Source: an uncultured Opitutia bacterium
Lineage (GTDB): Bacteria; Verrucomicrobiota; Verrucomicrobiia; Opitutales; Opitutaceae
Assembly (NCBI GenBank): GCA_903840415.1
Contig: CAIMFY010000017.1
Coordinates: 62,001 to 126,000, forward strand
Direction of reading: 5' to 3'
DNA: 64,000 nucleotides
Positions 30,102-35,616 of this stretch are shown here, piece by piece (within the stretch, counting starts at the first letter, position 1; every line of letters begins with the position of its first letter). Position numbers and translations under genes: made by a program. The notes beneath the pieces were generated by a model. That model made no database searches, was not told the origin of the DNA, and was given only the letters and a program-made list of their open reading frames with translations.

Positions 30102-32651
30102 TCAACGCCACTCGTGGCGTGGATAACGGCGCGACAATTCAGCCTTCACTTTGGGATATTGCTCGCGCCAGAAATTGGTCAGGTCGTCCGTCACTTGGAT
30201 CGGACGCTGATTAGGCGCGAGGATTTCGAATTTCACCGGCACGCGGCCGTGACCGATCGTGAACTTTCCCTCGATGCCGTAGAGTTCTTGAATGCGCGCG
30301 CTTAGAACAGGCGGGCCCTCCTTGTTGTAGGTGAGGCGCGACTTCCGTCCATTGCCCATCACGAGCCGCTCGGGCAGGTAGTCGTCGATGACCGCGAGCT
30401 GTTCGGCAGTCAGCCAGTCGCGCAGGACCGGCATGACGGGCTTGTCCTTGATGTCACGGTAGCCGAGTTCACCGTAGCAGATCTGCTCGATGAGCGTCGC
30501 GCGGTCGGCGTCCGTGATCGGATTCACTTCCAGCTCGGGAAACCATTCGGCCATCCGGTTTACTCGCATGATCCACTGCTCGACCGAATCGTCCCACGCT
30601 TCGAGTTTCAGGCGGCCAGCGACGACTTCCGCGGTTAGCAGCGCCGCCGCCTCATTGAGTGGCGCTTCGTCGCTGCTCGACTTCGAGTCGAGCACGAGGT
30701 CGCGGAAGCGGCGCTCGCGTCGAGACACCACGCGCTTCATCGACTCGTCGTAAGTCACTCCACGGGTCTCGCGGTAATCGTCGGGAAAGATTTCCTTCAA
30801 CCACGATTCCTCGATCGCGGTCGCGATGGAAAGGAGGGTGCTCACCTCGCCATCGCCGCGGCCGATTTCGCTAATTTCGCCGGCCACGAGAAGTTTCGCC
30901 TGCTGAATACCGCTCTCCCGCGCGAGCACGCCGCGACGGTTGTGGACGAGTTCGCACCTCAGCGTGCCGGCATCGAGCCTCCGCGCGAGTTGATCGGAGA
31001 AACCAGCAAGCACGCATTTTCTCACTTCGACTCCATCGATGCGATTTTCCGCGATATCGAGTCCCTCCTTCGACGCAATCTCCAGAAATTGGTCAAACAG
31101 TGGTCCAACCTGCCGCGCGCCCTGCGCGTGGATGCCGAGTCGGCGGCAGGCAACGAGCGAGTAGTTCGCCTTGTCTGCGTAACGCCACGCGCGCATCAGC
31201 AGGAAAAAATCGCTCTCGTGCTCCTCTCCCAAGGTATCCTCACGCGCTCGCTCGACTTCCTTCGGCACGCCACGGAGGAGAAAGCTTCGGCCCTGCGTGA
31301 GCGCGGCCATCAGCGCGACTGGCCGCACGCAACCGCGATCCGCGGCGGCGAGAAACATCCGGGCGTAGCGGGGGTGCACGGGAAAGCGCAGCATCTTCCG
31401 GCCGACCTCGGTGATGGATTTCTTCTCACCACCGAGCGCGCCGAGATCGGCCAGCAGATTCTCCGCGCGCACGAGGCCAACGGCGTCGGGCTTTTCGAGC
31501 CACGGAAAATTCGCGACGTCGTCGATGCCACTCGCCTTAAGCGTCAACACGACCTCGGCCAAATCGAGCCGCTTCACCTCGGGCAATTCCTGCGGCGCGC
31601 GTTGCTCGTGCTCGCGTTCCGTCCAAAGCCGCACGCACACGCCGGGCGCCGTGCGACCCGCACGGCCGGCGCGTTGATCGGCGCTCGCGGCAGAAATCTT
31701 TTCGACGAGCAGCGTATTGATGCCACGGTGCGGATCGAAGCGGGCGATGCGCGCGAGCCCGCAATCGATCACGGCGGTCACGCCGTCGATGGTGAGCGAG
31801 GTTTCGGCGACGTTGGTCGAGACGATAATTTTGCGCGCGTCGTAGCGCGCGACGGCACGGTCCTGCTGCTCCGGCGGGAGTTCGCCGTGGAGCGGAAACG
31901 TCACAAAGTCTCGAAGCTCGCGCGACGCCTGAATCGCCTGCACGGTGCGGTTGATCTCGTAGGCGCCGGGCATGAACACCAAAAAATCGCCACCGGTCGC
32001 GGCCGCGACGCGCTCGCATTCGCGCGCAGCGACGTCCCACACCGGCTCCGCTTCGAAGTCCACGCGCTTCTCCAAATATTCGATCCGCACCGGGAAGCTG
32101 CGGCCCTGCGAGACCAGCACGTCGCAGGGCGCAAGGTAGCTTTTCAACAGTGCGGCATCGAGTGTCGCCGACATCACGATGAGCTTCAGGTCGGGCCGGA
32201 TCGTCTGCTGGATCTGCAGCGCCCGGGCGAGCGAGATGTCGCCGTAAAGGTGCCGCTCGTGAAACTCGTCGAAGACGATCACGCTCACACCGCGCAGCGT
32301 CGCGTCGAACGACATTTGCCGGAGCAGGATTCCCTCGGTCACGAAACGGATCCGCGTGCGCTCGCTCACGCGCGACTCAAGTCGGATTTGATAGCCGACA
32401 CCTTCGCCGAGGGTGGTGCCGGCCTCCTCGGCGACGCGTTTCGCCAGCATGCGGGCGGCGAGCCGGCGCGGTTGGAGGACGACGACTTCGCCTTTCTCCC
32501 CGAGCAGGCCGTGACGCCAAAGCATCTGCGGAATCTGCGTCGATTTGCCCGAACCAGTCGGCGCCTGCACGATAAGTCGGCCGGCGCCGCGCACGGCAGC
32601 GACGACGGCGGACTCGAGTTCGTAGATGGGCAGTTCGCGCGGGGACGGCAT
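30102..32651 (-). CDS. hrpB: ATP-dependent RNA helicase HrpB
   Basis: An 849-residue DEAH-type helicase. Motif I is APTGSGKSTQIP, motif II is DEFHERH (DEFH variant common to HrpB), motif III is SAT, motif V STNVAETSLTIDGV and motif VI QRAGRAGRT. The helicase-associated domain and the HrpB-specific C-terminus (PNQRPIQVTDDLTNFW, then a terminal RRYPRHEW) are complete, so the gene is intact. HrpB is a widespread bacterial helicase whose natural substrate remains poorly defined. Its promoter lies in the non-coding region 32652-32860. Confidence 0.92.
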   Translation of the reverse strand: MPSPRELPIYELESAVVAAVRGAGRLIVQAPTGSGKSTQIPQMLWRHGLLGEKGEVVVLQPRRLAARMLAKRVAEEAGTTLGEGVGYQIRLESRVSERTRIRFVTEGILLRQMSFDATLRGVSVIVFDEFHERHLYGDISLARALQIQQTIRPDLKLIVMSATLDAALLKSYLAPCDVLVSQGRSFPVRIEYLEKRVDFEAEPVWDVAARECERVAAATGGDFLVFMPGAYEINRTVQAIQASRELRDFVTFPLHGELPPEQQDRAVARYDARKIIVSTNVAETSLTIDGVTAVIDCGLARIARFDPHRGINTLLVEKISAASADQRAGRAGRTAPGVCVRLWTEREHEQRAPQELPEVKRLDLAEVVLTLKASGIDDVANFPWLEKPDAVGLVRAENLLADLGALGGEKKSITEVGRKMLRFPVHPRYARMFLAAADRGCVRPVALMAALTQGRSFLLRGVPKEVERAREDTLGEEHESDFFLLMRAWRYADKANYSLVACRRLGIHAQGARQVGPLFDQFLEIASKEGLDIAENRIDGVEVRKCVLAGFSDQLARRLDAGTLRCELVHNRRGVLARESGIQQAKLLVAGEISEIGRGDGEVSTLLSIATAIEESWLKEIFPDDYRETRGVTYDESMKRVVSRRERRFRDLVLDSKSSSDEAPLNEAAALLTAEVVAGRLKLEAWDDSVEQWIMRVNRMAEWFPELEVNPITDADRATLIEQICYGELGYRDIKDKPVMPVLRDWLTAEQLAVIDDYLPERLVMGNGRKSRLTYNKEGPPVLSARIQELYGIEGKFTIGHGRVPVKFEILAPNQRPIQVTDDLTNFWREQYPKVKAELSRRYPRHEWR

Positions 32652-32702
32652 TTTTTTCGACGGACGGAAGAGCGTCCGGTCATTTCTAGCGGTGGCAAGC
32701 CC

Positions 32703-32742
32703 GTGAATAACCGGTGAACCAGATTGCTCCCAAGTTATTCAC
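32703..32742. repeat. Inverted repeat upstream of hrpB
   Basis: GTGAATAAC (32703-32711) and its exact complement GTTATTCAC (32734-32742) are 22 bases apart, about 51 bases before the hrpB start. It could be a dyad operator or a hairpin in the hrpB leader. The rest of 32652-32850 shows no gene; a short hairpin (CGGACG/CGTCCG) lies near 32660-32676. Confidence 0.5.
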
Positions 32743-32854
32743 CGCTTTCGATGGTGCAGCGATTGTGAAGAAGATAGGCTTCATTTTCCTAATCCAGCGC
32801 ACACGTTCGATGACGTTCCTTGATAGAACAGTCGAAGCGCGGCGGTCTGAAATA

Positions 32855-33685
32855 AATCGCCGAGAGCACGGCTGGGATAATCCCGGGCGACCGGGGAAAG
32901 GTTGACGGCAGCTGGTGCCGGCTTCCCCTCCAGACCGCGTTAGCGGTGTTGGCAGGCATATCTCACCAGTTCCTCTGGCCGAAGTCGTGTTCGGTCAGGC
33001 AAGTCACGAATAAGTGAACTGAGCGGCGAGGCGCGATTAGAAACCGCGAGCGAGCCGAGTCAGGCCCACGGGGCGTTTCGACCCGTGCGCCGACGCAGTT
33101 ACCCAGAGGGTTTCGGTTGCTACTGCGCAGACCAGAACGCAGTCGCGTTGTCCGGCGGGCCCACCCCGCCAAAAGGCCCAGTCCGCTCACCCGGATCGGG
33201 CGCGTAAGGACGGCGCGGCGGCGGGGAGCGAGCGAACCTGGCAAAGTTCGTCAAACCTCCTCCATGGGGCGGCGTGCAAAAACACGTCACTCCGCTGCAA
33301 GAGCGAAAGCAACCTGAGAGGTAAGAGGTCAGACCCGTAACGCGGGGCCAACGGCCGGCCAAAAGCTGGCGCCGTCCCCGTGGCAAAGGTGAGGACGCGA
33401 AGATAGGTATTGCAGACGTGTCCACACCACGTCCGGCGCACCGCTCCCGGCAGGGAGCGATCGAACCGGGCGCAGAGGCCTCACTCGAAAGATTCGGATC
33501 GGAAACGGTCCGGACGGTCCCGCCATGAGACCGAGACATCCGCATGCCGCGGAGAGTGGCGTCGGGAAGCACACCGCCCGCGAAAGCGAGCGCGTCCAAG
33601 CGTGTGCCGCCGGGAAAGAGCGCGTGACGAACGCCCACCCCCAAATTTGGCCCCGGGACCGCAAGGTCTCGGGGCCTTATTTTTA
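32855..33685 (+). ncRNA. Candidate large structured non-coding RNA (~830 nt)
   Basis: No credible protein gene is present here (a 174-codon antisense frame is not protein-like). The sequence is a chain of hairpins. Examples: 32859-32872, 32872-32886 (UAA loop), 32893-32928 (GGGGAA/UUCCCC enclosing CGGCA-GCUGG-UGCCG), 32934-32947, 32977-32996, 33067-33087, 33094-33127, 33154-33170, 33271-33288, 33351-33375, 33442-33459 (perfect 7-bp), 33495-33512, 33569-33607 and the terminator at 33649-33685. A long-range pairing GGGCGUU (33071-33077) with AACGCCC (33630-33636) may close a domain, competing with the 33067-33087 hairpin. All seven wobble pairs I found are G-U only when read on the plus strand. 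RNase P RNA, tmRNA, SRP and 6S signatures are not convincingly present. The 5' end is an estimate. Confidence 0.65.
33649..33685 (+). terminator. Intrinsic terminator of the structured RNA, before typA
   Basis: A 12-bp stem (GGCCCCGGGACC with GGTCTCGGGGCC, one G-U pair) with a GCAA tetraloop is followed by TTATTTTTA. On the minus strand no T-tract follows, so it stops plus-strand transcription. It lies about 100 bases ahead of the typA start and separates the upstream RNA from typA. Confidence 0.88.
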
Positions 33686-33786
33686 TCGCAGGTGAAGGTA
33701 GCGCGACTGGCCGCCTTCGGCCTTGCTTTCAACTGGTCGCGTCTGCACGTTGGGCCTCTTTTTCCAACACACGCACGCGTCCGCCA

Positions 33787-35616
33787 ATGAACCAGAGCAT
33801 CCGCAATATCGCCATTATCGCCCACGTCGACCACGGTAAAACCACCCTCGTCGACAAACTCCTCAAGGAGGGTGGCGTCTTCCGCGCCAACGAGCGCGTC
33901 GAAGAGCGCGCCATGGACTCCATGGACCTCGAAAAGGAAAAGGGCATCACGATCAAGGCCAAGAACACGTCCGTCCACTGGAAGGACAAGATCGTCAATA
34001 TCGTCGACACCCCCGGTCACGCCGACTTCGGCGGCGAAGTCGAACGCGCCCTCCGCATGGTCGACGGCGTGCTCCTGGTCGTCGATGCCTATGACGGGCC
34101 GCAGGCGCAGACGCGCTTCGTGCTCCGCAAGGCCCTCGCGCACGGTCTCAAGGTCGTCATCGTCATCAACAAGATCGACCGCGACAACGCTGAGCCCGCC
34201 AAGATGTATGACAAGGTGCTCGAGCTCCTCATGGAACTCAACGCCACCGAGGAGCAATTCGATGCCCCCGTCGTCTATGGCTCCGGCCGCGACGGCTACA
34301 TGATGTATCACCTCGGCGAGGAAAAGAAGGACATGTCGCCCCTCTTCCAGACCATCCTCGATCACGTCCCGCCGCCCTTTGCCAAGCCGAACGAGCCCTT
34401 CCATATGCTCGTCTCCAACATCGACTGGTCCGACTACGTCGGCCGCATCGCCGTCGGCAAGATCCTCGGTGGAACTGCCAACATCGGTCAGACCGTGTTT
34501 GGCATCCGCCACGCCGACGGCAAGCGCGTCCGCGCCAAAATCACCAAGGTGTTTGAGTTCACCGGCCTCGGCACGCGCGAGACTGACTCCGCCGTCGCCG
34601 GTAACATCGTCGGTCTTTCCGGGTTCGAGGACGTCGATATCGGTGACACGCTCACCGCCGACGAGGCCGGCCATCCCCTGCCCTTCACCCAAATCGATCC
34701 GCCGACCCTGGAGATGCAATTCTGCGTCAACGACGGCCCGCTCGTCGGGCAAGAAGGCAAACTCGTCACCTCCCGACAGCTCCGCGAGCGTCTCTTCCGC
34801 GAGTTGAAGACGAACGTCTCTATCTACATCGATGACTCCGATAAGGCCGGTGTGTTCAACGTGAAGGCCCGCGGCGCCATGCAAGTTGCCGTGCTCGTCG
34901 AGACGATGCGCCGCGAAGGCTTCGAGCTCCTCGTCTCCCGACCCACCGTGATCGAACGGAAATCTGAGGACGGCAAACGCCTCGAGCCGTATGAAACCGT
35001 CTGGATCGAAGTGCCGGACGAATGCGTCGGCGCGATCATGCAAAATCTCGCCAACCGCAAGGGCCTGCTGACCAACATGGAGAAGCATCCACACTCCACC
35101 ATGATCGAGGCGACAATCACGACGCGCGGCCTCATTGGCATGGAAATCGACGTCGTCAACGCCACCAGCGGACGCGGCGTGTTGAGCCATCTCTTCAAGG
35201 AATACGGCCCCTACGCTGGCGAAGTGCTCACACGCATCACCGGCACGCTCATTGCCACCGAAGCTGGCGAAACCACCGCCTACGCCCTCGTCATGGTGCA
35301 GGAACGCGGCAAACTCTTCGTCAGCCCCGGCGAGCAGGTTTACGAAGGCATGATCGTCGGCGAGAATCCGCGCAATGAGGACATCGCATGCAACGCCGTC
35401 CGCGCGAAGAAGCTCACGAACTTTCGCTCCCAAGGCGAAGGCGTCGGCGTCGGTCTCACGCCCGCAACCAAGCTCTCGCTGGAGCGCGCGATCGAATACA
35501 TTGCCGCCGACGAGTTCGTCGAGGTCACGCCGAAGAGCCTGCGCCTGCGGAAGCGCATTCTGAACAACGGCCTTCGCCAAAAGACCGCGAAATCGCAGAA
35601 GCAGCAGAGCGAATAA
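33787..35616 (+). CDS. typA: Ribosome-binding GTPase TypA/BipA
   Basis: A 609-residue translational GTPase related to EF-G. The G1 loop is [12 protein letters not shown] at about residues 11-22, followed by the G3 motif [12 protein letters not shown] and the G4 motif VINKIDRD; domains II, III and V follow in normal order, with a C-terminal BipA-specific domain ([20 protein letters not shown] region near residue 460). TypA is known to act in 50S assembly and translation under stress. Length is normal. It follows the structured-RNA terminator, has a typA-like leader of about 100 bases with no clear start site, and ends at a strong terminator. Confidence 0.95.

Follow-up and report, generated by a model that had tools for sequence, protein, structure and literature searches.

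Identity and gene neighbourhood of the RNA upstream of typA

Upstream of typA, the window (the whole stretch of 64,000 nucleotides that was analysed, from an uncultured Opitutia bacterium) carries on its plus strand, at positions 32875-33635, a match to the Rfam family RF03079, known as MISL. In a scan of the whole window with Rfam 15, the match covered the model at full length (1-751) and scored 497.7 bits (gathering score 274.6; E-value 5.9e-150); it was the single match above gathering in the window. A permissive scan of 32650-33800 (E up to 10) returned three further hits to different families at 13.9-16.1 bits, which lie far under their cut-offs and are chance-level; that scan gave no match to the models of RNase P, tmRNA, SRP, 6S or introns, nor to those of OLE, GOLLD or ROOL. 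Elsewhere in the genome of the window there is one copy of the RNase P RNA. Two above-cut-off matches to 6S RNA were also observed elsewhere in that genome (G000:C105:504-685 and G000:C51:71351-71531).

A preliminary description of the region had held that the large known classes (RNase P, tmRNA, SRP, 6S, introns) do not fit, and the permissive scan agrees. It had also put the RNA down as unnamed, a new class or a very divergent known one, and had proposed a search with the Rfam models as a check; the search found the strong match to RF03079, and since the candidate belongs to a known family, the claim of a new class fails on the test that the description had set for itself. Judged by this match, the structured region of 830 bases is clearly a copy of MISL, which has already been catalogued as a large RNA of bacteria. 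In the literature covered, which took in few subscription papers and in part only the matches listed, a Ribonanza preprint was the sole work naming the MISL RNA; the accessible text of the preprint states no function, and describes the chemical mapping of a MISL window taken from Rfam (PMC10925082).

The window's own family (f1) comprises 46 loci; hrpB lies divergently upstream of MISL in 37 of them, and typA lies downstream in 38. Beyond f1, hrpB or typA was found in 0 of 100 loci (fetched flanks, shortened where contigs end). In family f43, a gene resembling M23 peptidases is found upstream in 6 of 8 loci and one resembling rho downstream in 8 of 8, and the other families have their own recurring neighbours beside MISL; the assignments of hrpB, typA, the M23 peptidase and rho were made by reading the translated sequences, not by family scans. 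The position upstream of typA given in the preliminary description therefore holds here and in most f1 loci but not outside f1, and it is not a position conserved across relatives.

The same neighbourhood was examined in twelve MISL-negative f1 genomes, drawn from the twenty without a match that were listed in the order search. In five of the twelve, hrpB and typA are adjacent, none with MISL; three of these five sites have gaps of about 143-169 nt and two have about 1 kb of other sequence. Scanning eight of the twelve typA regions with cmscan, both 1-kb gaps included, found no MISL. A diverged MISL was considered for the hrpB-typA gaps of G329 and G005 (1000 and 1104 nt), and none was found. 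Since hrpB and typA can be adjacent without MISL, the MISL gene is a unit of its own and not always present, and since typA lies downstream only in the window's family, MISL is a stand-alone gene. On this comparison of loci, MISL is a stand-alone non-coding gene that is missing as a unit from many relatives.

The pattern of change among 44 f1 relatives shows the region to be non-coding. Compared with the window copy, 501 of 517 indels have lengths that three does not divide (an indel shared by several relatives being counted each time), and the six frames tested in the window are open in only 4 to 27 of the 44 relatives. On these two counts a protein-coding region was rejected, and the earlier statement that there is no protein-like frame is borne out: no frame is conserved.

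Secondary structure, strand and long-range pairings

Projection of the Rfam structure on the window copy gave 172 pairs, of which 160 are standard, 9 are G-U and 3 are A-C, so the consensus helices of MISL are formed in the window copy; grouping the pairs ourselves, we counted 24 helices. Covariation was measured with a G-test against alignments simulated along a FastTree tree, in which kinship is kept and pairing is broken, using our own script modelled on R-scape. MISL matches of at most 640 nt were excluded, which kept 141 of 146 records. From genomes outside the order, 60 of the 67 places found in the class search were fetched; the missing ones lie in G555, G559, G598, G649 and G657, with two of the three pieces in G652. 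For the Rfam pairs, G averaged 58.25 in the 141 sequences versus 0.34 in the null (sd 1.03), 30.45 in 82 sequences versus 0.00 (sd 0.70), and 11.96 in 45 f1 sequences versus -0.03 (sd 0.36). Sliding the Rfam pairs by 1 to 3 positions removed most of the signal. Single pairs at E<=0.05 numbered 28 in the 141 sequences, 23 of them within the Rfam structure, 4 in the 82 sequences, and 4 or 3 in f1 (two runs). Individually significant pairs are few, and are less decisive than the mean G.

The pairs also carry information on the strand. Among 23274 cells in the 141 sequences, 2177 are G-U and 983 are A-C, and the excess of G-U therefore points to the plus strand. The plus strand folds better than all 20 of its dinucleotide shuffles (z -4.33), and the minus strand likewise beats all 20 (z -2.42). 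The preliminary description had claimed that every wobble is G-U only on the plus strand; the choice of strand stands, but "every" does not, given the 3 A-C pairs in the window copy. Its picture of more than a dozen hairpins in a structured RNA is well matched by the Rfam helices and by covariation in relatives, which it had suggested measuring, far above the tree-aware null. Of the helices that it drew, those at 32977-32996, 33271-33288, 33351-33375 and 33495-33512 agree with Rfam helices within a few bases. The first of these exceeds the Rfam helix in length, and the covariation agrees with the longer form through the stack 32976-32979/32994-32997. This stack and 33266-33269/33290-33293 (141 sequences, above the null) lengthen known hairpins. 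On the other hand, the helix drawn at 32872-32886 is missing from the Rfam structure, where 32882-32886 is paired with 32891-32895 (a helix that covaries across families) and GGAUAAUC stays unpaired.

Beyond the Rfam helices, seven pseudoknot or kissing helices (PK1-PK7; Table 1) are missing from the structure line of cmscan, which omits the pseudoknot lines of Rfam, so that Rfam or the original description of MISL may already draw some of them. Six of the seven covary above the null. The search for stacks (four covarying pairs outside the cmscan line) in the 141 sequences was compared with every stack of 20 null alignments, and the pairing counts of PK1-PK7 were taken from an extended alignment of 136 sequences, with the four of 140 loci lacking the 5' element described below excluded. 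The stack of PK6 reached E 0.08 in smaller sets and is not among the stacks at E<=0.1 in the 141 sequences; the stacks of PK7 were found in the 141 sequences and are absent from the smaller sets. Two other stacks were not recovered in the 141 sequences: 33147-33152/33209-33214, seen in f1 only, and 33077-33080/33467-33470, with E 0.12 in 82 sequences. The covariation indicates that several extra long-range pairings tie the MISL RNA together. Conservation is also high outside the helices: positions conserved at 90% or more make up 91 of 347 unpaired columns versus 56 of 344 paired columns.

Table 1. Positions in the window of the predicted transcript, its flanking signals and its long-range helices
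Feature	Position	Strand	Basis
Possible -10 box CACGTT (weak)	32802-32807	+	TAnnnT position in other families
Predicted MISL transcript, about 870 nt	32815-33685	+	5' conservation edge; terminator with U-rich tail
Conserved 5' element GTTCCTTGATAGAAC (GUUCNUUGAWAGAAC)	32815-32829	+	Outside the Rfam model; 136 of 140 loci
PK0	Element loop 32821-32824 / conserved UCA region 32962-32965 inside the model	+	Stack exceeds every stack in 12 null alignments
P1	32829-32833 / 32870-32874	+	RNAalifold of f1; stack 32831-32833/32870-32872 above all null stacks
PK1	Hairpin loop 32912-32916 / 33131-33135	+	Stacks E 0; fully paired in 126 of 134; 24 helix sequences
PK5	Hairpin loop 32985-32989 / 33005-33009	+	Stacks E 0; fully paired in 74 of 83; 8 helix sequences
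PK7 (possible loop kissing)	33040-33044 / 33075-33079	+	Stacks E 0 (33041-33044/33075-33078) and 0.05 (neighbour register); fully paired in 115 of 133; 12 helix sequences
PK2	GGUUGC 33115-33120 / GCAACC 33309-33314	+	Stacks E 0; fully paired in 109 of 136; 15 helix sequences
PK3	CUGCAA 33295-33300 / loop 33410-33415	+	Stacks E 0; fully paired in 91 of 112; 24 helix sequences
Long-range Rfam helix	33318-33328 (33318-33320 and 33325-33328) / 33479-33486	+	Rfam alignment; pairs 96 to 100% standard over two alignments
PK4	Hairpin loop 33521-33525 / 33557-33561	+	Stacks E 0, 0 and 0.1, including 33522-33526/33556-33560; fully paired in 135 of 136; 13 helix sequences
PK6 (weak)	33593-33596 / 33626-33629	+	Fully paired in 135 of 136, nearly invariant; 5 helix sequences
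Intrinsic terminator stem-loop	33649-33676	+	Followed by the U-rich tail TTATTTTTAT

Ends of the predicted transcript

The Rfam model does not appear to cover the whole RNA. Conservation among f1 loci jumps at 32815, 60 nt upstream of the model, from a mean of 0.55 over the ten bases before to 0.99 after, and this edge coincides with the conserved 5' element. In the form GTTCNTTGAWAGAAC, with at most 3 mismatches of 13, the element is present in 136 of 140 loci, no more than 130 nt upstream of the point where the model begins. Under a stricter test (at most 4 mismatches of 17, within 260 nt), it was found in 0 of 1 loci of f9, 0 of 6 of f11 and 0 of 1 of f22, and in 6 of 8 of f2, 4 of 5 of f20 and 1 of 2 of f30. 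The element was also found in 71 of 71 testable loci among the 80 named contigs listed. Of these 71, 51 are further loci whose first 300 bases are not exactly shared with a locus used before, and they are close relatives that by descent are not independent of the first set.

The loop of the element would contact the body of the RNA through PK0. In 136 sequences, the pair 32824/32962 is AU in 58, UA in 36, CG in 16, UG in 8 and GC in 2, that is, five pair types, and is unpaired in 16; the other three pairs of PK0 are nearly invariant. The window copy has three pairs of PK0 and a U-C mismatch at the covarying 32824/32962. The second helix at this end, P1, is poorly aligned outside f1.

A promoter is less distinct. 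Counting from GTTC, TAnnnT is present at -13 to -8 in 32 of 91 non-f1 loci. Among f1 loci, the T at -8 is the one strong position upstream of the element (91% of 45), with no clear TAnnnT, and a consensus scan gave no sigma-70 site. At the other end, 38 of 44 f1 loci and 84 of 95 other loci have a terminator-like hairpin with a U run no more than 120 nt from the end of the model; for control stretches situated another 400 nt along, the counts are 4 of 44 and 11 of 91. With the conservation edge and element on the 5' side and the terminator on the 3' side, we infer the transcript listed in Table 1. Transcription would start at or adjoining the 5' element, and the MISL RNA appears to begin about 60 nt earlier than the Rfam model. 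The start at 32855 in the preliminary description would accordingly be too late by the f1 conservation edge, and its strong intrinsic terminator was found as described. The observation as a whole, a large plus-strand non-coding structured RNA that ends in a strong terminator, is confirmed.

Distribution and possible role of MISL

RF03079 had matches in 84 of the 372 genomes sampled from the order, in 94 of 384 from the class and in 31 of 387 from the phylum; the samples overlap, and they were searched with stricter filters which lose weak matches. Two of the 31 matching genomes in the phylum sample lie outside the class, and 0 of 14 control genomes had a match. When the core pattern was compared with 84,980 species genomes, 83 stretches matched, and among the 80 matches listed all titles are Opitutae/Opitutales/Opitutaceae, Opitutus, Opitutia, Cephaloticoccus or Verrucomicrobia-type. 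Twenty families have at least two members in the tree of the RNA; 16 of them are clades and four are not. Judged by this tree, which mostly follows the carrier families, the inheritance of MISL is largely vertical.

Two genomes, G210 and G275, have two MISL genes each (L084/L102 and L085/L088); the copies are merely about 74% identical, and are therefore old or were acquired separately. A mobile or phage element was also considered and rejected, as blastn of the window MISL against the phage and plasmid collections gave no match. A partial MISL, 85-89% identical to the f1 copies, was observed in L141, a 2347-base contig of a viral collection. The match is below the MISL gathering score and the contig has no hrpB or typA match; L141 is probably a misfiled cellular contig.

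Taken as a whole, the data are in our view quite probably best explained by a stand-alone gene at about 32815-33685 whose product, the MISL RNA, acts in trans. By sequence comparison, the RNA is held together by some two dozen helices and by six or more pseudoknots that covary. Its transcript would fold into a single compact body and would most likely serve as a ribozyme or as the RNA at the core of a ribonucleoprotein (RNP) machine. The near-invariant unpaired AGGCA at 32954-32958, AGACCCGU at 33331-33338 and UCGGG at 33562-33566 are the candidate working surface, and neither antisense pairing nor control of typA would be its mode of action. The support for such a trans-acting role is indirect, from the unpaired conservation and from the absence of a recognisable Hfq (PF17209) in all 57 of the 57 relatives searched. 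A Ro60-like TROVE domain was recognised in 3 of the 57 (G003, G009 and G015), none with a MISL match; a Ro60-like partner, which does not track MISL, and an Hfq partner are both unsupported. It is also conceivable, if rather doubtful, that MISL is a natural ribozyme or RNA-based machine of Verrucomicrobiota in which a pseudoknot locks the 5' end, a part that the public model lacks, into a conserved active or binding core.

Usual leaders are far smaller than 870 nt. A cis-acting leader or riboswitch-like element controlling typA would account for the location of MISL on the same strand upstream of typA in most f1 loci, but it is extremely improbable: a strong terminator stands before typA, typA is found in none of the 100 non-f1 loci within the flanks fetched, hrpB and typA occur together without MISL, and the length is well beyond that of such elements. 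On the neighbourhood outside f1 and the empty hrpB-typA sites, we rejected the typA leader. That MISL is a regulatory RNA pairing antisense with mRNAs is very unlikely; although conserved unpaired stretches are present, the structure and the long-range contacts would far exceed the needs of such a role, and the lack of a recognisable Hfq in the 57 relatives speaks against an Hfq-type antisense role.

The remaining alternative, that MISL assembles with itself into a dimer or cage, draws on other large RNAs. OLE, like MISL, is a large, ornate bacterial RNA whose biochemical function is described as unresolved in the available part of the source; according to the same text, it acts as an RNP, and a ribozyme function has been proposed for it (PMC11332333). 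GOLLD and ROOL are likewise large, ornate bacterial RNAs, and all three are described in the accessible part of a second source as forming homo-oligomers (PMC12286853). MISL is similar to them in size class and ornateness, and some of its presumed pseudoknots could be intermolecular, a difference to which covariation is blind. On the other hand, no model links the window RNA to OLE, GOLLD or ROOL, the other Rfam hits being chance-level; OLE comes from Gram-positive bacteria and has known protein partners (PMC11332333, in the part available), and GOLLD and ROOL differ also in that the window MISL has no blastn match among phages or plasmids. Self-assembly of the MISL RNA is unlikely in our judgement. 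By likeness to these RNAs, a role as homo-oligomer, RNP or ribozyme is conceivable for MISL.

Next to nothing on MISL was found in print in the literature covered. Compared with the Rfam model, the predicted transcript of the window MISL would reach about 60 nt further in the 5' direction, and the RNA has helices beyond the cmscan structure line. The corrected 5' end, the predicted boundaries and the covarying pseudoknots would provide a construct for biochemical and cryo-EM work, whereas a construct made from the 751-position model would miss the 5' element and its contact. The presence and absence of MISL at one locus within one family would make deletion tests and phylogenetic profiling direct.
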